DNA from: Sulfurovum sp.
GTDB taxonomy: Bacteria; Campylobacterota; Campylobacteria; Campylobacterales; Sulfurovaceae
Direction: 5' to 3'
NCBI GenBank assembly: GCA_011391015.1
Contig: JAABRH010000010.1
Span: forward strand, 1-39,284
DNA length: 39,284 nucleotides
Under the pieces are notes generated by a model. The model ran no database searches and was not told where the DNA came from. It saw only the letters and a list, made by a program, of their open reading frames with translations. Made by a program: the position numbers and the translations under genes. Shown piece after piece: positions 5,679-16,378 of this stretch; the stretch's first letter is position 1, and every line of letters begins with the position of its first letter.

Positions 5679-6950
5679 ATGATGCTGAACATAAGTAAAG
5701 AAGAAGTATTGACCTACCACAAGCAAGGTAAAATTGCTATTGAACTTACCAAGCCTTGCGACACTCAGTATGAACTCTCTTTGGCCTATACGCCAGGCGT
5801 TGCCATACCCTGTCTAGAAATCCATAAAAACCCCGCTCTTTCTTTTGAATATACCAATCGTTCCAACCTTGTAGCCGTCATCTCTGATGGGTCAGCCGTA
5901 CTTGGTTTGGGAAACATAGGACCTTTGGCATCGAAGCCTGTCATGGAAGGCAAGGCGGTACTTTTTAAAAAATTTGCCCATGTGGATGCGTTTGATATTG
6001 AACTGGATGTACATAGTGTGGAGGAGATAGTCGCTGCCTGCAAAGCGATAGCGCCTACATTTGGCGGTATTAACCTTGAAGATATCGCTGCGCCGCAGTG
6101 TTTTGAGATAGAACGCTTACTGCAAGAAGCACTTGATATCCCTGTATTTCATGACGATCAGCATGGTACCGCTATCATCACCACTGCGGGACTTATCAAT
6201 GTACTTGAGCTATCAGGTAAAAAAGCAGAAGAGATAAAAATCGTCATCAACGGTGCAGGCGCAGCAGGTATCGCGTGCGCGAGGATGTACCGTGCTTTTG
6301 GAGTGAAACATATTGTGATGTGTGATTCCAAGGGAGTGGTTTCATTGGCGCGTCAAGATTTAAATACCTATAAGCAGGCTTTTGCGGTGCAAACCGATGC
6401 ACGTACATTAGAGGATGCCATAGACAATGCCGATATGTTTTTGGGCCTTTCCAAAGCAGGTACACTCAGCAAAGCAATGGTAGCCAAGATGGCACCTAAT
6501 CCTGTGATCTTTGCTTTGGCAAATCCGCTTCCTGAAATACTGCCCGAAGAGGTTGCAGAAGTAAGGGATGATGTGATTATGGCGACAGGTCGTTCGGACT
6601 ATCCCAATCAGATTAACAATGTATTGGGGTTTCCCGCTCTTTTTAGGGGTGCGCTTGATGTACGTGCACGAAAGATCACTGAAGGTATGAAGCTGGCAGC
6701 CGCATATGCCTTGGCAGCCTTGGCAAAAGAGCCTGTGCCTGCGTATGTCAAAGCTGCGTATGGTGATGATACTATTGCATATGGTCATGCACATATCATC
6801 CCACTTCCTTTCAACAAAGAAGTACTTGTTTGGGTCGCATCAGCTGTAGCCAACGCTGCATTTGAAGAGGGTGTGGCACGTATCGAGGAGTTTGATGTGG
6901 AGGTTTATAAAGAACATTTAAAGTCCAGTCTCTATACAGAGGATGTCTGA
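5679..6950 (+). CDS. NAD(P)-dependent malic enzyme
   Basis: This enzyme oxidatively decarboxylates malate to pyruvate and CO2, or runs in reverse, linking the TCA cycle to pyruvate and NAD(P)H. The 423-residue length matches the short bacterial malic enzyme without the phosphotransacetylase domain. Visible motifs are YTPGVAIPC near the N-terminus, SDGSAVLGLGNIGP, VFHDDQHGTAI (metal/substrate site), the nucleotide-binding VINGAGAAGIA, and FALANPLPEI. The start is ambiguous between adjacent ATGs at 5679 and 5682. It is separated by 55 bases from the previous operon, and the DUF2868 gene follows after 3 bases, so co-transcription with that gene is likely. In a reductive-TCA organism it may balance C3/C4 pools. 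Confidence 0.93.
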   Translation: MMLNISKEEVLTYHKQGKIAIELTKPCDTQYELSLAYTPGVAIPCLEIHKNPALSFEYTNRSNLVAVISDGSAVLGLGNIGPLASKPVMEGKAVLFKKFAHVDAFDIELDVHSVEEIVAACKAIAPTFGGINLEDIAAPQCFEIERLLQEALDIPVFHDDQHGTAIITTAGLINVLELSGKKAEEIKIVINGAGAAGIACARMYRAFGVKHIVMCDSKGVVSLARQDLNTYKQAFAVQTDARTLEDAIDNADMFLGLSKAGTLSKAMVAKMAPNPVIFALANPLPEILPEEVAEVRDDVIMATGRSDYPNQINNVLGFPALFRGALDVRARKITEGMKLAAAYALAALAKEPVPAYVKAAYGDDTIAYGHAHIIPLPFNKEVLVWVASAVANAAFEEGVARIEEFDVEVYKEHLKSSLYTEDV

Positions 6951-6953
6951 GAT

Positions 6954-8336
6954 ATGACGCTTGAATCGTATCTGGATTTTCAAAGTGTAGTAAAGGAGCA
7001 TCATTCTTCAAAAGAAGAGAGACGTGCATTTGGCATACAGCATGCAGACCTAAAAACACGACCTCTTGAGCAGATTTTATCATGGTTTGATGCCCATAAA
7101 AAAAGTGTTAAAAAACCGCTTGTGGGTAAAATCATCACTTCAGCTTTGTACAAAATCAGCCTTATACTTGGATTGGTAGCATTTTTTTTGGGATTATTTT
7201 CGGGGATCGGACTGCTCTCTTATAGCGGCAAAGAGCCTGTGAATGTGCTATATTTTATGGCTATGGTCATTATTTTGCCTCTTCTTAGCATGCTGCTGAG
7301 TCTTATTGCTATGCTAAGAGTAAAGCACTCAAGCGAGGTTTTGGTGCATCTCTCACCCGCTTTTTGGATGGAGCAGATCCTCTCTGTGTTGTTGAAAAAG
7401 AGAGGAAAGAAAGTACAAGAGATGGTCATCGATCCCCTGCTTGCAAACTGGGTAGTTATAAAGCGTTCCCAGTTGCTTGCTTTGTTGTTCTCTTTTGGTT
7501 TACTGTTGGCTCTAGTGGCAACGGTGGTTACCAAAGATATCGCTTTTTCATGGAGTACCACACTGCATATTGATGCAAAAACCTTCTATGATTTTTTGTA
7601 TGCCGTTGCCCTGCCTTGGAGAGATCTCTTTTCTTCAGGTGTGCCCTCACTTGAGCTGATTGAGCAGAGTCACTATTTTAGGCTGGGAAATAGTTTGGAT
7701 AAAACCATGATTCAGCATCCTGCCTTGCTGGGGGAGTGGTGGAAGTTTTTGGCATTGGCTACGATTTTTTATGCACTTTTTTTGCGTTTATTGCTCTTTA
7801 TGACAGCTTTTTTAGGACTGCGTGTAGCGCTAAAACAAGCTATTTTGAGTCTTGAAGAGGCAAAAATACTGCTTGAGGAGATGAATGAGCCTATCATCAC
7901 AAGCCATGCGATAGAGCCTGAGGCAGGTTTGTCTACAGCTGAAGGTAAGTATGAAAAAACTGTTCTTACTTTAGTGCCTTCTTATGATGCGGTGTATGGC
8001 TGGTACATATCCCAAGAGCAGCTCTTGTTGCTCTGTGAGAGTGTTGGTGTGAGGGCATCACACTGCATTGAGGCGGGTGCTCTGATGCCTTTAGCCAAAG
8101 AGGGTGAAATCCAAGATAAAAGTAAAGTAGAGGTACTTTGTTTTGTGAGAGCTTGGGAGCCTCCGACGATGGAAATAGTGGATTTTCTTACTGAACTTTC
8201 TTGCAGAGCAGACAAAGTCATCGTTGTTCCCGTTGGAACGCTTGAAAATCAGTATCGTGCTACGCCCAAAGAACTAGATGTGTGGGATAGAAAACTCACT
8301 GTGTTGAACCATGATAAGATATGGCTGAAACGATGA
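6954..8336 (+). CDS. DUF2868 family inner-membrane protein
   Basis: This 460-residue protein has about four predicted membrane segments (near residues 66-90, 98-122, 172-194 and 263-288) and a soluble C-terminal domain. Its pattern and its overlap with a DUF3482 GTPase fit the DUF2868 family, which in many Proteobacteria is encoded directly before such a GTPase. Its biochemical role is unknown. The last 16 bases overlap the GTPase start, implying coupled translation, and the two products probably act together at the inner membrane. It starts 3 bases after the malic enzyme stop. Confidence 0.8.
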   Translation: MTLESYLDFQSVVKEHHSSKEERRAFGIQHADLKTRPLEQILSWFDAHKKSVKKPLVGKIITSALYKISLILGLVAFFLGLFSGIGLLSYSGKEPVNVLYFMAMVIILPLLSMLLSLIAMLRVKHSSEVLVHLSPAFWMEQILSVLLKKRGKKVQEMVIDPLLANWVVIKRSQLLALLFSFGLLLALVATVVTKDIAFSWSTTLHIDAKTFYDFLYAVALPWRDLFSSGVPSLELIEQSHYFRLGNSLDKTMIQHPALLGEWWKFLALATIFYALFLRLLLFMTAFLGLRVALKQAILSLEEAKILLEEMNEPIITSHAIEPEAGLSTAEGKYEKTVLTLVPSYDAVYGWYISQEQLLLLCESVGVRASHCIEAGALMPLAKEGEIQDKSKVEVLCFVRAWEPPTMEIVDFLTELSCRADKVIVVPVGTLENQYRATPKELDVWDRKLTVLNHDKIWLKR

Positions 8337-9730
8337 TGCTGTCTCACCCCCGATTTGCAGTTGTAGGGCATCCCAACAAGGGTAAAAGCTCGATTGTTTC
8401 AGCGCTTTGTTTGGATGATACGGTGCAGATATCTGATACACCCGGAACCACGATCAATACACGCAGTTTTCCTTTGCGTGTGGATGGTAAAGTGCTGTAT
8501 GAACTTTTTGACACTCCCGGTTTTCAAAGACCCACAAAGGTACTCGCATGGCTGCAGCAGTATCGCGTCTCAGCCGATAAAAAACATGAAGTTATACAGG
8601 CATTTATCGATGAACATCGACATGATGCTATTTTTCATGATGAGATAGAACTTCTAGAGCCCATCATGGAGGGCGCAGGTATCGTGTATGTGGTAGATGG
8701 CTCGAAGCCCTATAGCCAAGAGTATGAAGCAGAGATGGAGATACTACGTTACACCGGTCAACCCTCTATGGCACTGATCAATCCTATCGATATATCAGAC
8801 TATACCCAAGAATGGAAGCGCGCGTTGGAGCAGTACTTTAAGATAGTCCGTGTTTTTAATCCGATGACAGCACATTTTGAGGAACATATGGCACTTTTGG
8901 AGAGTATCGCACAGCTGAAGCAGGAGTGGACGGCGCCGATGAAACACTCTATAGCACTTTTTAAAGCACATCAGGAGCATCTGTTTGAGCAGACTGCTAC
9001 AGCCATCGCAAGATTGGTGCATGAAGCACTGAGCAGCGTAGAAAGAGTACCGCTTCGTGGCAAAGAAGCAAGTAAAGCGGAAAAAGAAGAGCTAGAACAG
9101 CGCTACAAAAACAGACTCAGAGCCTTGGAAATGGCTGCGCAGAAGAAGGTGGAACACATTTGGAGTCATGATCATCTTCAAAAGGAGCAACAGCTCTTGA
9201 CTTTTGAAGGGATGGATCTTTTTTCCCAAGAGACTGCTTCGGTATTTGGATTGACACGTAACGAGCTTTTAGTCGCGGCAGCAACATCAGGAGCAAGTGT
9301 AGGTGCCGGGATCGATCTGCTGTTTGTAGGACACACCTTGCTTTTGGGTGCAGCCATTGGTGCCATTGGTGGAGCAGCAAGTGCCTTTTTGGGTTTTAAT
9401 GAACTCTCAGAAATCAAAGTACTGGGACAGACACTGGGCAGACGTTCCATCGAAATGGGACCGATGGTGAACAAAAACTTCCCGTATATCTTGCTTGGTC
9501 GGGCACTATACCATGCAAACACCGTGATAGGGTACTCTCATGCGATGCGAAGCAAGGTAGATATGGTGATGGATAGCTCCTTTAAAAGCAAATGGCTTCT
9601 GGATGAAATGAAAAAATCTTTAGAAAAATTTCATACGCTGTTTCGCGCAAAAGAAGTCGTACAGGGCGATGTACTTGAGCAGTATGCTGCACTGATTCAA
9701 ACTATTTTAAAGCGTCTGACAGATGCCTAA
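8321..9730 (+). CDS. DUF3482 family membrane-associated GTPase
   Basis: This 469-residue protein has an N-terminal Era/TrmE-like G domain: P-loop GHPNKGKS (16-23), G2 region with PGTT (41-44) and G3 DTPG (64-67). The usual G4 NKxD appears as NPID (154-157), an unusual substitution that could relax guanine specificity. A long helical, charged middle region (about 205-300) precedes a glycine/alanine-rich hydrophobic hairpin (about 318-360), which suggests membrane insertion as in the DUF3482 family. It overlaps the DUF2868 gene by 16 bases and the next gene by 8. The ATG at 8321 is used; ATGs at 8333 and 8336 are possible alternatives. Function is unknown, perhaps membrane remodelling or stress response. 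Confidence 0.83.
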   Translation: MAETMMLSHPRFAVVGHPNKGKSSIVSALCLDDTVQISDTPGTTINTRSFPLRVDGKVLYELFDTPGFQRPTKVLAWLQQYRVSADKKHEVIQAFIDEHRHDAIFHDEIELLEPIMEGAGIVYVVDGSKPYSQEYEAEMEILRYTGQPSMALINPIDISDYTQEWKRALEQYFKIVRVFNPMTAHFEEHMALLESIAQLKQEWTAPMKHSIALFKAHQEHLFEQTATAIARLVHEALSSVERVPLRGKEASKAEKEELEQRYKNRLRALEMAAQKKVEHIWSHDHLQKEQQLLTFEGMDLFSQETASVFGLTRNELLVAAATSGASVGAGIDLLFVGHTLLLGAAIGAIGGAASAFLGFNELSEIKVLGQTLGRRSIEMGPMVNKNFPYILLGRALYHANTVIGYSHAMRSKVDMVMDSSFKSKWLLDEMKKSLEKFHTLFRAKEVVQGDVLEQYAALIQTILKRLTDA

Positions 9731-10382
9731 AATCAACCCTTTTAGCCATTTTCACCGGGATGCACGACAAGAGAATCAAGTAGGGATGACACCTTTTGTA
9801 AAAAAAGTATTGGCACTTCTTTTTGCCATTTTTTTACTGCTTTTCCCCCGCTATGCACCGTGGGCACCCCATTCTATGCAGGATGACACTTTGGTGTATC
9901 AGATATTTACACTCTATTTTTTTGTCATTTCTCAGACTTTGGGTATCGTGCACGAGGCAGGGCATGGAGTGTGCTATATTTTGCCTTGCCCAGAGTTTAT
10001 GATGGTTGCCAACGGGTCACTGTTTCAGTTGTTGTTTCCTGGTCTTATTGCTTATTATTACTACAAAAAAGGCAAGCGCTTTGCTGCAAGGATAGGACTT
10101 TTTTTTCTGGGACTTTCGCTTTCCTACACTGCATGGTACCTCTCCACGGCACATGAAGGGGCTGTTCTTCCCGCACACAAATCTTTTTTAGGCGTGGATG
10201 CTTTGCATGATTTTCATTATATGCTCAGTGCAATGGGACTTTTGGCGTATGAGTCTTTACTCGCATCTCTTACGCGATTGGTCGCTTATCTTTTGATGAG
10301 CATTTCTGTGCTGGGGATGTTTTTGGATGCTTTTTCCAATGAAGAGACGGCAAAAAAGCTCAAAAAGAGAAACCTAAAGTAG
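9723..10382 (+). CDS. Polytopic membrane protein with HEAGH zinc-protease motif
   Basis: This 219-residue protein has about five hydrophobic segments. The HEXXH motif HEAGH (77-81) lies at the end of a membrane helix (IFTLYFFVISQTLGIV), as in membrane-embedded M50 site-2-type metalloproteases. A later His/Asp-rich stretch LHDFHYML (161-168) could supply a third metal ligand, although the classic NPDG motif is not seen. The ATG overlaps the GTPase stop by 8 bases, tying it to the DUF2868/DUF3482 pair. Its 3' end overlaps convergent pgpA by 9 bases. The protease call is an inference from one motif; it could be a metal-binding membrane protein of another kind. Confidence 0.7.
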   Translation: MPKINPFSHFHRDARQENQVGMTPFVKKVLALLFAIFLLLFPRYAPWAPHSMQDDTLVYQIFTLYFFVISQTLGIVHEAGHGVCYILPCPEFMMVANGSLFQLLFPGLIAYYYYKKGKRFAARIGLFFLGLSLSYTAWYLSTAHEGAVLPAHKSFLGVDALHDFHYMLSAMGLLAYESLLASLTRLVAYLLMSISVLGMFLDAFSNEETAKKLKKRNLK

Positions 10383-10865
10383 TCTGTCTATGCCCATGAG
10401 TAGCACGACACTCAGAAGCCCGCCCGCTATACCTGCTAACACATCATCGAGCATGACACCAAGACCGCCTTTAAGTTCTCTGTCTATCCAGCCAATCGTC
10501 GAAGGTTTCCAGATATCAAAAAGACGAAATGCACCAAAACTCAATACAATAGCCAATATATCAGCATAGGCATACTCTAGGGTGATGGCGGTCGAGTAGG
10601 CTATCATCAGGCTCAGCCACATACCCGCTGCTTCATCGATAACGATATGCTGCTGATCGTGGATACCTGTGGTTTTCTCGTACTTGTTGATCTCAAAAAT
10701 ACCGATGATGGTAATGGCAAGCGTGAGCATAAACAGGGTTTCCATCCCTAAAGTATAAAGCACAAGTACTCCTACAGGAAGTGAAGCCAGTGTGCCAACG
10801 GTACCGGGCGCTTTTGGAGAGAGTCCTGCGCCACCAAAGGTGAGAAAAAGTTTTTGAACTGTCAT
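10374..10865 (-). CDS. pgpA: Phosphatidylglycerophosphatase A
   Basis: The enzyme dephosphorylates phosphatidylglycerol phosphate to phosphatidylglycerol at the inner membrane. The 163-residue length is typical. The N-terminal GAGLSPKAPGTVGTLASLP motif and the acidic metal-binding motif VIDEAAGMW are characteristic, and the C-terminal GGLGVMLDDVLAG is also typical. Membrane helices fill the rest. AAGGA lies about 7 bases before the ATG. It is the last gene of the minus-strand group ispDF / response regulator / ATP-sulfurylase-like / pgpA, 15 bases after the preceding stop. Confidence 0.94.
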   Translation of the reverse strand: MTVQKLFLTFGGAGLSPKAPGTVGTLASLPVGVLVLYTLGMETLFMLTLAITIIGIFEINKYEKTTGIHDQQHIVIDEAAGMWLSLMIAYSTAITLEYAYADILAIVLSFGAFRLFDIWKPSTIGWIDRELKGGLGVMLDDVLAGIAGGLLSVVLLMGIDRLL

Positions 10866-10880
10866 AAAAGATTCCTTGGC

Positions 10881-12062
10881 TTAAGTCAGTGAAGAGGTTT
10901 GATAGAGTGATACAAGATTGAGATAGAACTGCTCTTCGCTTTGCTGCTCCAAGAGCCCTGAACTTGGGATAAGCGCGTAGTGCATCTCCTGAAGATTTTT
11001 AAACCTATCGGGGAAGAGTGCGGCCAAAATATTGGCAGAGACCTCTTTGCGCACCAATATAGAAGGAGGGATGAGTCCTGCTTGCATGAGCTGCATGATG
11101 GATGCTGAATGGTAATGCACATGATGATGCTGCCCATGAGGACAGGTACGGGCGTTGACCAAGGTTTTACAAGTGTCACAGTAGACAAACTCATCGATAG
11201 TCTGAATCTCTATGTCTATGTTTTTACAATGGTCAAACACGGTATTGAGACGGTTTTGATCATAATAAAGCCCCAATCCTCCATGGTTTCTACCTACGAT
11301 AAGCTGATTGCATCCATAGTTTTTTGCCAAAAGAGCATCCAAGATCAGTTCATTGTAGCCCGCAAAAATGTAGGAGTTCTCAAAAGGGATCACCAGTACT
11401 TTATTTTGCGGCAGGAAATTGTCAATAAAAGTGGACAATGCATTGTAACGGATGTCATAGCGTAGCCCTTCTGAAGTAAAGGGTTTGCGTAAAAAAATAA
11501 TGAGCAGATCCACTGAACTAAGCGCTTGGCGTATCATTCTTTCATGGGCGCGGTTGAGAGGGTTGGCGGCGAGCATGATGGAGCTGATCGAAGTGGCACC
11601 CGTTTTTTCAACCATAGACTGAATGCGTTTGAAGTTGTCAGTGATAAGCGGATACTCTACGGTGTATTCGCCGCTGACAGCTATCTTTCCCAGCCGCATA
11701 CTGGTGTTTTTGACTCCGGGATGTGTGGTGTCGGTGGTGCCGTAGATATGCATAAGACGTTGTTGAACGTCCACAGGGAAGGTCTCTTCAACGACGAGTT
11801 CACCTACTTTTTTCTCATCACAGATCAGATTGAGGGTTTCACCGCGTTCTGCATTTTTAAGCACTTTGTTGTTTCTTTCACCTTTAGGAGCAAGGATAAA
11901 AGCAAAAGGGAAGGGAACACCTTGGTAGAATTTAGTCTGGTCCACCTCTTGGGCTTCTTTTTTATTCATGAGTTTTGTAACAGGCGCGATCAGCCCTGCT
12001 TTCACCAATGCCAAAGTGGAGAGGGCTTCTGTGTCGATAAAAAGTGATTTGTTTTTTTGCAT
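10881..12062 (-). CDS. ATP-sulfurylase (Sat) homologue with altered active site
   Basis: At 393 residues it has the full PUA-like plus catalytic architecture of sulfate adenylyltransferase. However, key motifs are changed. The canonical QxRNPxHxxHE reads LAANPLNRAHE (164-174), so the Gln, Arg and first His are replaced while the second His and Glu remain. GRDHAG reads GRNHGG (257-262). The late SGT-x-x-R substrate loop reads HSASIMQL, and RPEV reads RKEV. The Cys/His zinc-type element is kept (C295, C298, C307, H309, H312). Annotation as a working ATP sulfurylase would therefore be unsafe. It sits between the orphan response regulator and pgpA; C. jejuni Cj1609 is, as I recall, in the same position. 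The role may be regulatory or may act on a different nucleotide substrate. Confidence 0.8.
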   Translation of the reverse strand: MQKNKSLFIDTEALSTLALVKAGLIAPVTKLMNKKEAQEVDQTKFYQGVPFPFAFILAPKGERNNKVLKNAERGETLNLICDEKKVGELVVEETFPVDVQQRLMHIYGTTDTTHPGVKNTSMRLGKIAVSGEYTVEYPLITDNFKRIQSMVEKTGATSISSIMLAANPLNRAHERMIRQALSSVDLLIIFLRKPFTSEGLRYDIRYNALSTFIDNFLPQNKVLVIPFENSYIFAGYNELILDALLAKNYGCNQLIVGRNHGGLGLYYDQNRLNTVFDHCKNIDIEIQTIDEFVYCDTCKTLVNARTCPHGQHHHVHYHSASIMQLMQAGLIPPSILVRKEVSANILAALFPDRFKNLQEMHYALIPSSGLLEQQSEEQFYLNLVSLYQTSSLT

Positions 12063-12089: not shown

Positions 12090-12971
12090 TTATTTCTTTT
12101 TAAACAAATTGTATTTTTTCCGTTTTTCCCATAGGCTTTTTCGTGAAATACCTAATTTTTTAGAGAGTTCGGTATCGGGGAATTTATACTGAAAACTATT
12201 GACAATAAATTTCACATAATCATCAATCGTCAAGATTTCATTTTGATCATAGAGTTTGGAGTCTGTGTTGAGTGTAATGGTTCTAAATTCAGATTCGATG
12301 TTTGAAGTGGTACTCAAGATAAAATTGTATGCCTTGAGTAGCTCCAGAAGAAGCTCTTTGTCGGTTTTTTTCAGTTCGTGAATTTCTGTGATGTAGAGCA
12401 CGGCACTAGAACTGCTTTTCTCTATTTTCTCTTTCCAGTTTTTGTCACTCAGCGGGATAAATGTCAAGAGTATATTGTTTTGTTGGGCATGTTCAAAAAC
12501 GATTTTATCGACCAGTCTTTGGTAATTGGTTTCTATGATAAGCGGGGTAGTGATACTCTCTATGTCAAAGTCTGTTTCAATGCCATGCAGAAGATTTTGC
12601 ATATACTCCTGATAAAGTGATGTTTGCTGTCTAAGCGTTTGATATTCGTTATAGTGCTTGATTTTACGCATCAAATCTTCGAGCATAAAAGGTTTGACGA
12701 TGTAGTCTTTTGCCCCAAGTTTTAAAGGCTCTCCTACCGTGTCGTTGTTGATGTAGTTCACCATGAGGATGATGATTTTGTCTTTAAACTCTTTAATCAG
12801 CGGTGCAGTACTTTGTCCGGGAAGATTGGTCGAGAGTAGATAGACATCACCATGACTCTTCATCGCTTCTTTTGTAGAGGAGTATATCTCAGTGTCATAT
12901 CCGTTTCCGCTTAGTTTGGAAGCGATACTTTGCGCCAGATAGAGTTCATTTTCTACAATGATTATTTTCAT
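12090..12971 (-). CDS. Atypical orphan response regulator, HP1021/Cj1608 type
   Basis: The start is set at the ATG at 12971, which overlaps the ispDF stop as ATGA; a TTG at 12983 would lengthen it. The product has 293 residues. The N-terminal receiver-like domain (1-110) keeps the fold and the LGAKDYIVKPF motif. The phospho-acceptor Asp is replaced by Ser47 (YLLSTNLPG), and the acidic pair is E7-N8, so phosphorylation is unlikely. A central domain of unknown type follows, and the C-terminus carries a helix-turn-helix (LSKKLGISRKSLWEKRKKY). Helicobacter HP1021 and Campylobacter Cj1608, also next to ispDF, are essential or near-essential regulators linked to oxidative stress and replication control. 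The same role is inferred here. Confidence 0.87.
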   Translation of the reverse strand: MKIIIVENELYLAQSIASKLSGNGYDTEIYSSTKEAMKSHGDVYLLSTNLPGQSTAPLIKEFKDKIIILMVNYINNDTVGEPLKLGAKDYIVKPFMLEDLMRKIKHYNEYQTLRQQTSLYQEYMQNLLHGIETDFDIESITTPLIIETNYQRLVDKIVFEHAQQNNILLTFIPLSDKNWKEKIEKSSSSAVLYITEIHELKKTDKELLLELLKAYNFILSTTSNIESEFRTITLNTDSKLYDQNEILTIDDYVKFIVNSFQYKFPDTELSKKLGISRKSLWEKRKKYNLFKKK

Positions 12972-14089
12972 ATTTTTTTCCAATCAAAATAAGTTAAATT
13001 TGCAACGGCATGTACACTCACACCCTCTTTCCGTCCTACAAAACCGAGTTTTTCAGCCGTTGTGGCTTTGATGTTCACCAAGTTGGTTCGTATGCCAAGC
13101 AGCTCTGCCATCTTTTGACGCATCGCTTCTTTGTAGGGCAGCAGCTTGGGTTCTTGTGCCACGATACAGAGATCAACATTTCCTATGGTGTATCCATAAG
13201 AGGTGATTTTACGGACAGTGTCTGCGAGCAGTGTTTTCGAGTCGATACCGTTGTAGCTGGCATCGGTGTCGGGATACAGTTCCCCAATGTCTCCCATGCC
13301 TGCTGCTCCCAAGAGTGCGTCTATAAGAGCATGGATAGCCACGTCACCGTCACTGTGAGCCTGAAATCCATAAGGGGCATCTATCTCTATACCACACAGA
13401 AACATAGGCTTACCTGTTTCAAAAGGATGGATGTCCAATCCAAAACCTGTCACTGTTTTAGCGCAAGGTGCCTTAAGGCAAGGCAGTTTTTGCAAGTCGG
13501 CCAGTGTAGTAAGCTTATGGGCATCGGGTGAGCCTTCCACAAAATGGATTGTTTCTCCCAACGCAGCGATGGCTGAACTCTCATCTGTGAAAAGGGTTTG
13601 GGTCTGAAGTGCTTTTTTAAGTGTCTGTGTATGTGAAAGCTGCGGGGTTTGGACGATGCGCACTTTTTCCCTGTCTATAGCTGTGCCGTCAAGATAGAGT
13701 GTATCGGTAACAGGCAGTACGGGTACGATGCAGGAAGCCGCTTCTTTAGCTGCAAGAATACGCGTTATCATCTCTGAAGGCACGCAGCATCTGGCAATAT
13801 CTGAAACAAGTACATAGGGTGTAGTGACGGATTTGAGTGCATTGTCCAGTGATGCCTGTCTGCTGTTGCCGCCTTCTATGTAGGTGTAGGACGCAAAGTG
13901 TTTCATCAGGCGTATCTCATCTGCAGTGGATACAATGATAATCTTATCAAAGTGTGCAGTTGCTTCAAAGTGCTCTACAACATGCAACCATAAAGGTATA
14001 TCACCTGTGTAGAGCCACTGTTTTTTTGCAGCGCAATCAAATCTGCTTGAACTGCCGGCTCCCAAAAGAATCAAAGTGGTACGAGACAA
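12968..14089 (-). CDS. ispDF: Bifunctional IspD-IspF isoprenoid synthesis enzyme
   Basis: This is a fusion of 2-C-methyl-D-erythritol 4-phosphate cytidylyltransferase (IspD, about 1-205) and 2-C-methyl-D-erythritol 2,4-cyclodiphosphate synthase (IspF, about 213-373) in the MEP pathway. IspD shows LLGAGSSSRF (8-17) and a Lys-rich loop. IspF shows DIHPF (219-223) and HSDGD (245-249), the zinc-binding region. The start is a TTG at 14089 with GAGGAA about 5 bases upstream. A minus-strand TATAAT lies upstream (14128-14133). The fused form is typical of Campylobacterota and a few other groups. It is the first gene of the operon with the response regulator, which overlaps it by 4 bases. Confidence 0.95.
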   Translation of the reverse strand: MSRTTLILLGAGSSSRFDCAAKKQWLYTGDIPLWLHVVEHFEATAHFDKIIIVSTADEIRLMKHFASYTYIEGGNSRQASLDNALKSVTTPYVLVSDIARCCVPSEMITRILAAKEAASCIVPVLPVTDTLYLDGTAIDREKVRIVQTPQLSHTQTLKKALQTQTLFTDESSAIAALGETIHFVEGSPDAHKLTTLADLQKLPCLKAPCAKTVTGFGLDIHPFETGKPMFLCGIEIDAPYGFQAHSDGDVAIHALIDALLGAAGMGDIGELYPDTDASYNGIDSKTLLADTVRKITSYGYTIGNVDLCIVAQEPKLLPYKEAMRQKMAELLGIRTNLVNIKATTAEKLGFVGRKEGVSVHAVANLTYFDWKKI

Positions 14090-15833: not shown

Positions 15834-16091
15834 TTAATAATGATATCTGCACTGCGCAATCAAGATCATCTGATCAGTCACTTTGTAAACCAATCTGTGT
15901 TCAAGTGTGATCCTTCTAGACCAGTATCCAGACCAATTGTATTTTAAGGGTTCAGGCTCACCAATGCCAGAAAATGGCTCTCTTTTAATGTCTTTGATCA
16001 GTAGATTTATTCTTTTTACTATTTTTTGATCATTGGTCTGCCAGTGCAAATAGTCATCCCAAGCCTGATCTGCGAAAATAAGCCGATTCAC
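15834..16091 (-). CDS. yoeB: YoeB-family mRNA-interferase toxin
   Basis: This 85-residue RelE/YoeB-fold toxin cleaves mRNA on the ribosome. The family ending CRYHY is exact, with His84-Tyr85 corresponding to the catalytic C-terminal pair of E. coli YoeB. The catalytic Glu lies in GIGEPEPLK (45 or 47), and Arg66 in EHRLVY matches E. coli Arg65. The length matches the family. Its start overlaps the stop of yefM by 4 bases, the usual antitoxin-first coupled arrangement. All residues expected for activity are present, so it looks functional. Confidence 0.93.
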   Translation of the reverse strand: MNRLIFADQAWDDYLHWQTNDQKIVKRINLLIKDIKREPFSGIGEPEPLKYNWSGYWSRRITLEHRLVYKVTDQMILIAQCRYHY

Positions 16092-16339
16092 TCGAAAAGT
16101 TCTCTTTGCGTTCCAAGTCCTGCCTCTAATTGCTGTATGGCATCATTTAAACGTGAAGCATTGTTGATGCTTTGCATAAGATAGGCTGTTTCTTCCATAG
16201 ATTTAAAATCACTAAGGGATACCATTACGACAGGTTCTTTATTCTGTCGTGTTATAACGATAGGGGTATGGTTGTTAACAACCAAATCCATTGTTGATGC
16301 CAAATTTTGTCTTGTATTGGAAAATGTTGTTGTTTGCAA
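16088..16339 (-). CDS. yefM: YefM-family antitoxin
   Basis: This antitoxin of the Phd/YefM family neutralises YoeB and represses the operon. I choose the TTG at 16339 (protein begins LQTTTFSNTRQNLAS) because AGGAGA lies about 5 bases upstream and the N-terminus then matches the family. An ATG at 16369 would add ten residues that run through the operator. The product is 83 residues, with the N-terminal DNA-binding region and PIVITRQNKEPVVMVS typical of YefM, and an acidic helical C-terminal tail that wraps the toxin. Confidence 0.9.
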   Translation of the reverse strand: MQTTTFSNTRQNLASTMDLVVNNHTPIVITRQNKEPVVMVSLSDFKSMEETAYLMQSINNASRLNDAIQQLEAGLGTQRELFE

Positions 16340-16360
16340 GTTTTCTCTCCTGTAATTATA

Positions 16361-16378
16361 TGTACACATATTAGTACA
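16361..16378 (-). promoter_or_regulatory. YefM-type operator, tandem TGTACA cores
   Basis: A perfect TGTACA palindrome (16361-16366) and a 5-of-6 copy AGTACA (16373-16378) are spaced 12 bases centre to centre, just upstream of the antitoxin start. E. coli yefM operators use TGTACA cores at this kind of spacing. A minus-strand TAATAT at 16367-16372 could be the -10, placed between the cores, so binding would block RNA polymerase. Confidence 0.6.

Follow-up and report, generated by a model that had tools for sequence, protein, structure and literature searches.

The SatL protein encoded in the window, by which we mean the whole stretch of 39,284 nucleotides of Sulfurovum sp. DNA analysed, is very probably not an ATP sulfurylase, and the same holds for its family; the residues that are invariant in Sat are gone, NCBI's curated cut-offs are missed, and users of APS are mostly absent. 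SatL is the name given here to this campylobacterial family of Sat-like proteins without the Sat residues. Our best explanation, to which we give roughly even chances, is that SatL is non-catalytic, with its function in domain III, and is kept in the cemR operon. The first-pass annotation had suggested that ATP-sulfurylase function was lost and that the protein now catalysed another reaction or had become regulatory. The loss is strongly supported by the residues, the cut-offs, the lack of sulfate genes next to satL and the scarcity of APS users, whereas a different reaction is disfavoured because the pocket decays repeatedly while the zinc domain III does not.

The gene order in the window is ispDF-HP1021-satL-pgpA, and Table 1 lists these genes together with the parts of SatL. 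The Pfam ATP-sulfurylase family PF01747 matched residues 146-346 with 184.9 bits against a cut-off of 24.3 (1.7e-54), and there was an N-terminal PUA_2 match (1.1e-14). An AF2 model made from a 63-row alignment had a pLDDT of 88.7 and a pTM of 0.85; in Foldseek it matched 8a8d and 1v47 over its full length (TM 0.75-0.85) as a complete three-domain fold. When one genome per species was searched, the closest named genome was Sulfurovum sp. 16-42-52, whose SatL is 98% identical, and no second PF01747 gene was present in the window's own genome (1.74 Mb, 85% complete). Elsewhere in the window, positions 6954-10382 hold genes for a DUF2868 protein and a DUF3482 GTPase, followed by a 219-aa protein without a Pfam match, and at 15834-16369 a YoeB-type toxin gene is paired with one for a YefM/Phd antitoxin.

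Table 1. Genes of the satL operon and features of SatL in the window.
Feature	Position	Strand	Remarks
ispDF	12968..14089	minus	First gene of the operon
HP1021/CemR-type orphan response regulator	12090..12983	minus	Likely start ATG 12971; directly upstream of satL, gap 27 nt
satL	10881..12062	minus	393 aa, ATG at 12062, stop 10881-10883; ATP-sulfurylase fold; homologue of annotated Sat/Cj1609
Domain I, PUA-like (residues 1-135)	11658..12062	minus	Lowest conservation; eroded in relatives such as L054 and L058
Domain II, former nucleotidyltransferase core (136-275)	11238..11657	minus	From Pfam, Foldseek and entropy
LAANPLNRAHE (164-174), in place of QTRNPxHRAHE	11541..11573	minus	Sulfate-binding Gln and Arg lost
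GRNHGG (257-262), in place of GRDHAG	11277..11294	minus	Many relatives degenerate, e.g., ASLGSSD-type
Zinc/histidine element (295-317), C295xxC298...C307-P-H309-G-x-H312-H-H314-x-x-Y317	11112..11180	minus	Four putative ligands and Y317 invariant (63/63)
SGTxxR loop position (317-323)	11094..11114	minus	YHSASIM in the window; motif lost across the family
SatL-specific C-terminal region (329-393)	10884..11078	minus	PP, R338, S342, R353, G369, F379-Y380, end YQTSSLT
pgpA	10374..10865	minus	Downstream of satL, gap 15 nt

Two alignments were made, the first of 94 SatL sequences with five campylobacterial Sats, and the second, numbered by the residues of the window protein, of 63 SatL sequences (<80% identity) and 14 Sats, the latter drawn from Campylobacterota, Bacillota, Cyanobacteriota and Deinococcota and including a bifunctional Serratia enzyme. 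All 14 Sats have Q164, T165, R166, N167, H170, H173, R258, D259, T320 and R323. Neither Gln164 nor Arg166 of QTRN occurs in any of the 63 SatL proteins; the former is usually Leu or Met, and the latter is Ala in 53, while N167 is retained in 27. Position 170, the first His of HxxH, is His in 45, Asn in 14 (including the window protein) and Thr in four; H173 is present in 60/63 and E174 in all. Arg258 survives in only six, the window protein among them, most relatives having Gln, and Asp259 of GRDH is found in one, with Asn in 48, such that the GRDH site mostly reads G-Q-N-H. At the SGTxxR position, Thr320 is found once and Arg323 four times, and SGT is found in none. The motifs read in the first-pass annotation thus all stood up to the alignment: LAANPLNRAHE at residues 164-174 for QxRNPxHxxHE, GRNHGG at 257-262 for GRDHAG, a substrate loop (SGT-R) that is gone and reads YHSASIM at 317-323, and a retained Cys/His zinc-type element at C295/C298/C307/H309. 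Variation of these residues among proven Sats would have spoken against that reading; the aligned Sats with solved structures, as well as the 14 further ones, keep them all. Chance or an alignment artefact as the source of motif loss was excluded by this comparison with bona fide Sats.

Scores against curated models point the same way. The window protein reached 186 bits against a cut-off of 387 and 123 bits against one of 323 for the two NCBIfam Sat models, and no member of the 63 attained NCBI's curated Sat cut-offs, the best E-values being 1e-62 and 7e-47. Enzymes that would consume APS are likewise scarce. AprA reached its cut-off in 0/61 genomes, and strong PF01507 matches, i.e., CysD or CysH with about 125 bits or more (a threshold chosen by eye from the score table), were found in 19/61, one of which is G122, a genome with a true Sat and no SatL; hence about 42 of 60 SatL genomes are without a clear APS-reducing enzyme. 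In the window's own genome, 85% complete, none of APS reductase, APS kinase and AprA was clearly present, the matches to PF01507, APS kinase and AprA being weak and unspecific, and no sulfate-assimilation gene is adjacent to satL.

That SatL might still work as an ATP sulfurylase despite its unusual residues, in sulfate assimilation or in the oxidation of sulfur, we regard as highly improbable. Its PF01747 membership and published annotations favour it, as does a frameshifted Sat-like gene in NZ_CP081281 (L219, ~6700-7950) that has lost the Arg, in ANPLHRAHE, yet retains GRDHAG and ISGTxIR; loss of the Arg alone is therefore no proof of inactivity. Like SatL, the NZ_CP081281 protein has the Arg replaced and a loop one residue longer, but unlike SatL it keeps GRDHAG and ISGTxIR and lacks HHH; in the tree, a fragment of it groups with the Sats, as their first branch. 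The record is labelled a Phaeobacter inhibens plasmid, looks error-rich and is perhaps misassigned. Against a surviving Sat activity stand the family-wide loss of the Gln, the Arg and SGTxxR, the degenerate pockets of some genera, the absence of AprA, the few CysH-type genes and the lack of linkage to sulfur genes; moreover, some genomes encode a distinct true Sat in addition to SatL.

A PF01747 gene was found in 239/298 Campylobacterota genomes, and nearly all of the sequences read are SatL. Five genomes (L002-L006) carry a high-scoring PF01747 gene (249-281 bits) with all Sat motifs intact; four of them, from one genus, also hold SatL, and the fifth is G122. Three of the four with both genes have no strong CysH/CysD match. 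Searching one genome per species for CPHGxHHH[IVT] turned up 422 stretches, of which 413 are relatives, and the best 80 listed are all from Campylobacterota. Among plasmids, one SatL was found, in Sulfurovum mangrovi, the record's reading frame being disrupted near domain III; the signature was not found in the phages searched, nor outside Sulfurovum in plasmids and phages. SatL is monophyletic (support 100/100) with a long stem separating it from the Sats, and the family is best read as a vertically inherited Campylobacterota paralogue or descendant of the homo-oligomeric Sat. Its mean pairwise identity is 0.51, against 0.53 for IspDF. A pseudogene in decay was excluded, as the evolutionary rate is like that of IspDF and the ORF is open in about 240 genomes.

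Conservation within SatL is not evenly spread. Domain I has a mean entropy of 2.02 bits, domain II one of 1.86 and residues 276-393 one of 1.52, with values falling to 1.00 over 291-317, 0.24 for H312-314/Y317 and 0.00 at the zinc-ligand positions; the QTRN positions, at 1.99 bits, are no better than the domain II background. CxxC...C-x-H is present in 63/63 SatL proteins at all four positions, and P308, G310, Y317, G329, P332, P333, R338, S342 and Y380 are also invariant. The HHH triplet is complete in 54/63, with single members varying, and the C-terminal tail beyond about residue 350 (G369, F379, Y380 and the YQTxSLT end) is nearly invariant and has no counterpart in Sats. Compared clade by clade, some genera keep MMAANPLHRAHE and GQNHAG, whereas others have LDGQIFHKAHE, PITRIHE, ASLGSSD or GQNTPN pockets; CPHGxHHH or something close to it is kept in all. 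Parts of the family can therefore do without the pocket, whereas none does without domain III. On the SatL tree, the equivalent of the GRDH His changed about five times, the D/N position about 12 times and G262 eight times, but the zinc ligands never. Two relatives (L054 and L058) have much of domain I deleted; two ORFs of about 600 aa (L051, 445-2250; L055, 1357-3207) carry long, unusual N-terminal extensions. As judged from conservation, the contrast between pocket and domain III is our main argument that the role of SatL may be a non-catalytic one.

The strongest competitor to a non-catalytic SatL is a repurposed nucleotidyltransferase, in which nucleotide is bound via H-x-x-H-E and GxNHxG, the nucleotidyl group is moved to some other, probably non-sulfate acceptor, and the zinc/His element belongs to the new active site; we think this possible though doubtful. 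H173 and E174 are near-invariant, H or T170 is found in 49/63, and G257 and N259 are common. Because H173, E174, a small residue at 166 and, as a rule, H/N/T170 are kept, most lineages could still bind a nucleotide or carry out some chemistry. Weak matches were seen to citrate lyase ligase (27/63) and to a general cytidylyl/adenylyltransferase model (4/63), and the full nucleotidyltransferase fold appears to be retained in the AF2 model. There is also a precedent, since in Campylobacter an APS-kinase-like protein has been repurposed for capsule phosphoramidate synthesis. However, GxNHxG is destroyed in several genera where the zinc motif stays, the tree shows repeated changes in the pocket, and the SGTxxR loop is lost everywhere; no adjoining gene hints at a substrate, and the gene is cleanly missing from at least two lineages.

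The place of the gene is nearly constant, too. The regulator HP1021 adjoins satL in 171/173 loci (118 of 120 long loci have it directly upstream, and 53 of 53 short ones have it alongside), mostly overlapping it or within about 60 nt, with ispDF and pgpA usually present; the position between an HP1021-type regulator and pgpA, pointed out in the first-pass annotation, is thus typical of the family. In two genomes of family f6 (L091, 3695-5274; L096, 3871-5479), satL lies outside the cemR operon and away from HP1021. There it sits before a lipoprotein gene of 134-141 aa without a Pfam match and divergent from queH; as a route to function, these neighbours gave no clear lead. Where satL is missing from the operon (Helicobacter-like genera, family f6 and G228), the order is ispDF-HP1021-pgpA or similar. 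HP1021 is present in 54 of 59 satL-less genomes and lacking in five, but no satL genome examined lacks it (Fisher p=0.003, kinship ignored). In G141 (L228), near-complete in two contigs, and G117 (L227), ispDF is kept, but HP1021, satL and an adjacent pgpA were not found.

This linkage raises the alternative that SatL serves CemR/HP1021 as a dedicated partner or sensor, its zinc/His domain responding to metal or redox and tuning the regulator. Besides the shared loci and the nested occurrence, down to the joint absence of both genes from G141, the mirror-tree partial correlation between HP1021 and SatL is the highest of six pairs at 0.51 (0.37-0.65), although this range overlaps with the 0.23-0.57 of ispDF-HP1021. 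How CemR perceives its signal is described as enigmatic, and a text search of the same paper found no discussion of the satL neighbour (PMC11334517). HP1021 does not need SatL, since it is kept in most satL-less genomes, the Helicobacter-like and f6 ones included, with its conserved positions little changed, and in the two f6 genomes satL is found away from it. Furthermore, a CemR deletion has been made in C. jejuni (PMC11334517), whereas Cj1609 is reported as essential, and service to CemR could therefore not be the whole role of SatL. Taken together, a dedicated partner seems unlikely, and more so the specific form in which SatL is a metal- or redox-responsive pseudoenzyme that gives CemR, an oxygen/energy regulator, its signal input and is dispensable only where CemR gained another (Helicobacter-like genera and f6). 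A functional tie of some kind between SatL and CemR is nevertheless plausible from the linkage, the nested occurrence and the weak mirror-tree signal.

Two further candidates were tried on the regulator and rejected. HP1021 residues did not mark the presence of SatL, as eight of 52 conserved columns change in at least one of the satL-less lineages, with a single column (E to D) changing in both. Nor did a redox Cys of CemR appear to replace SatL: it is Cys in 100% of satL-less genomes, but this is explained by loss of the Cys mainly in Sulfurovaceae. In the window CemR, Thr takes the place of the Cys (C27/C31) reported as common to H. pylori, C. jejuni and A. butzleri; this Cys is absent from nearly all Sulfurovaceae read, while present in almost all other families; with the Cys missing, CemR of Sulfurovaceae cannot sense redox by that residue.

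Returning to the non-catalytic reading, its steps may be put as follows. SatL would no longer make APS; the sequences show the sulfate half of the active site lost family-wide and the nucleotide half eroding, with selection now acting on domain III (the putative Cys3His zinc site, the His-rich segment that follows and the new C-terminal tail) and on the place behind HP1021/cemR. In the Methanothermococcus enzyme, domain III holds the zinc site and makes most of the dimer interface (PMC10322725), and the most conserved part of SatL is thus the equivalent of that interface. SatL would then have the ATP-sulfurylase fold, dimerise through domain III like the Methanothermococcus and Thermus enzymes, and bind zinc; it may act without catalysis through domain III, by metal- or redox-dependent partner binding, and in the same physiological programme as CemR.

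Published work bears on the family under other names. Cj1609 is listed among the essential genes of C. jejuni and C. coli, but as core and non-essential in C. lari and C. hyointestinalis, and was read as sulfur metabolism (PMC10077673); its essentiality may reflect polarity on pgpA. Cj1607-1609 jointly respond to epinephrine (PMC4435418), and sat A290V is among about ten changes in an aerotolerant C. coli passage line (PMC5366326). A Sulfurimonas review noted a Sat-type enzyme without AprBA in four sequenced species and assigned it to assimilation (PMC4584964), a Nautilia study counted a Sat-type gene as sulfur respiration (PMC10092268), and an aquifer Epsilonproteobacteria genome study cited one for sulfate activation (PMC4674564); from the phylum-wide pattern we infer that these genes are SatL. 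In the literature searched, of partial coverage, there was neither a description of catalytic-residue loss in SatL nor an assay of any SatL. A gene that is reported as essential in two Campylobacter species and is found in most of the phylum thus carries the name of a reaction that is very probably beyond it, and its database annotation as a sulfate-activating enzyme is very probably in error, as is the metabolism deduced from that annotation. Recognising SatL as a distinct family removes the review's puzzle of a Sat without AprBA, cautions against scoring SatL as sat in metagenomes, and directs attention to a zinc/His domain III encoded beside the global regulator gene cemR.

Among known proteins, Cj1609, the annotated sulfate adenylyltransferase of C. 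jejuni, stands behind ispDF (Cj1607) and the HP1021 homologue (Cj1608) just as satL does here, and it is expected to be a SatL. Citrate lyase ligase and the HIGH-type nucleotidyltransferases have the core fold and H-x-x-H in common with SatL, as well as the weak profile match, but SatL is without an ISSTxxR-like motif and the accessory domains are different. The homo-oligomeric Sats of Thermus thermophilus (1v47) and Methanothermococcus thermolithotrophicus (8a8d) resemble SatL in the three-domain fold over the full length, the Cys/His zinc element of domain III, E174, P168, R338 and many core positions. At ~22-28% identity, however, SatL has lost their sulfate-binding Gln and Arg, the GRDH Asp and SGTxxR; its QTRN loop is one residue longer, and it has the CPHGxHHHxxY segment and a tail ending in YQTxSLT.
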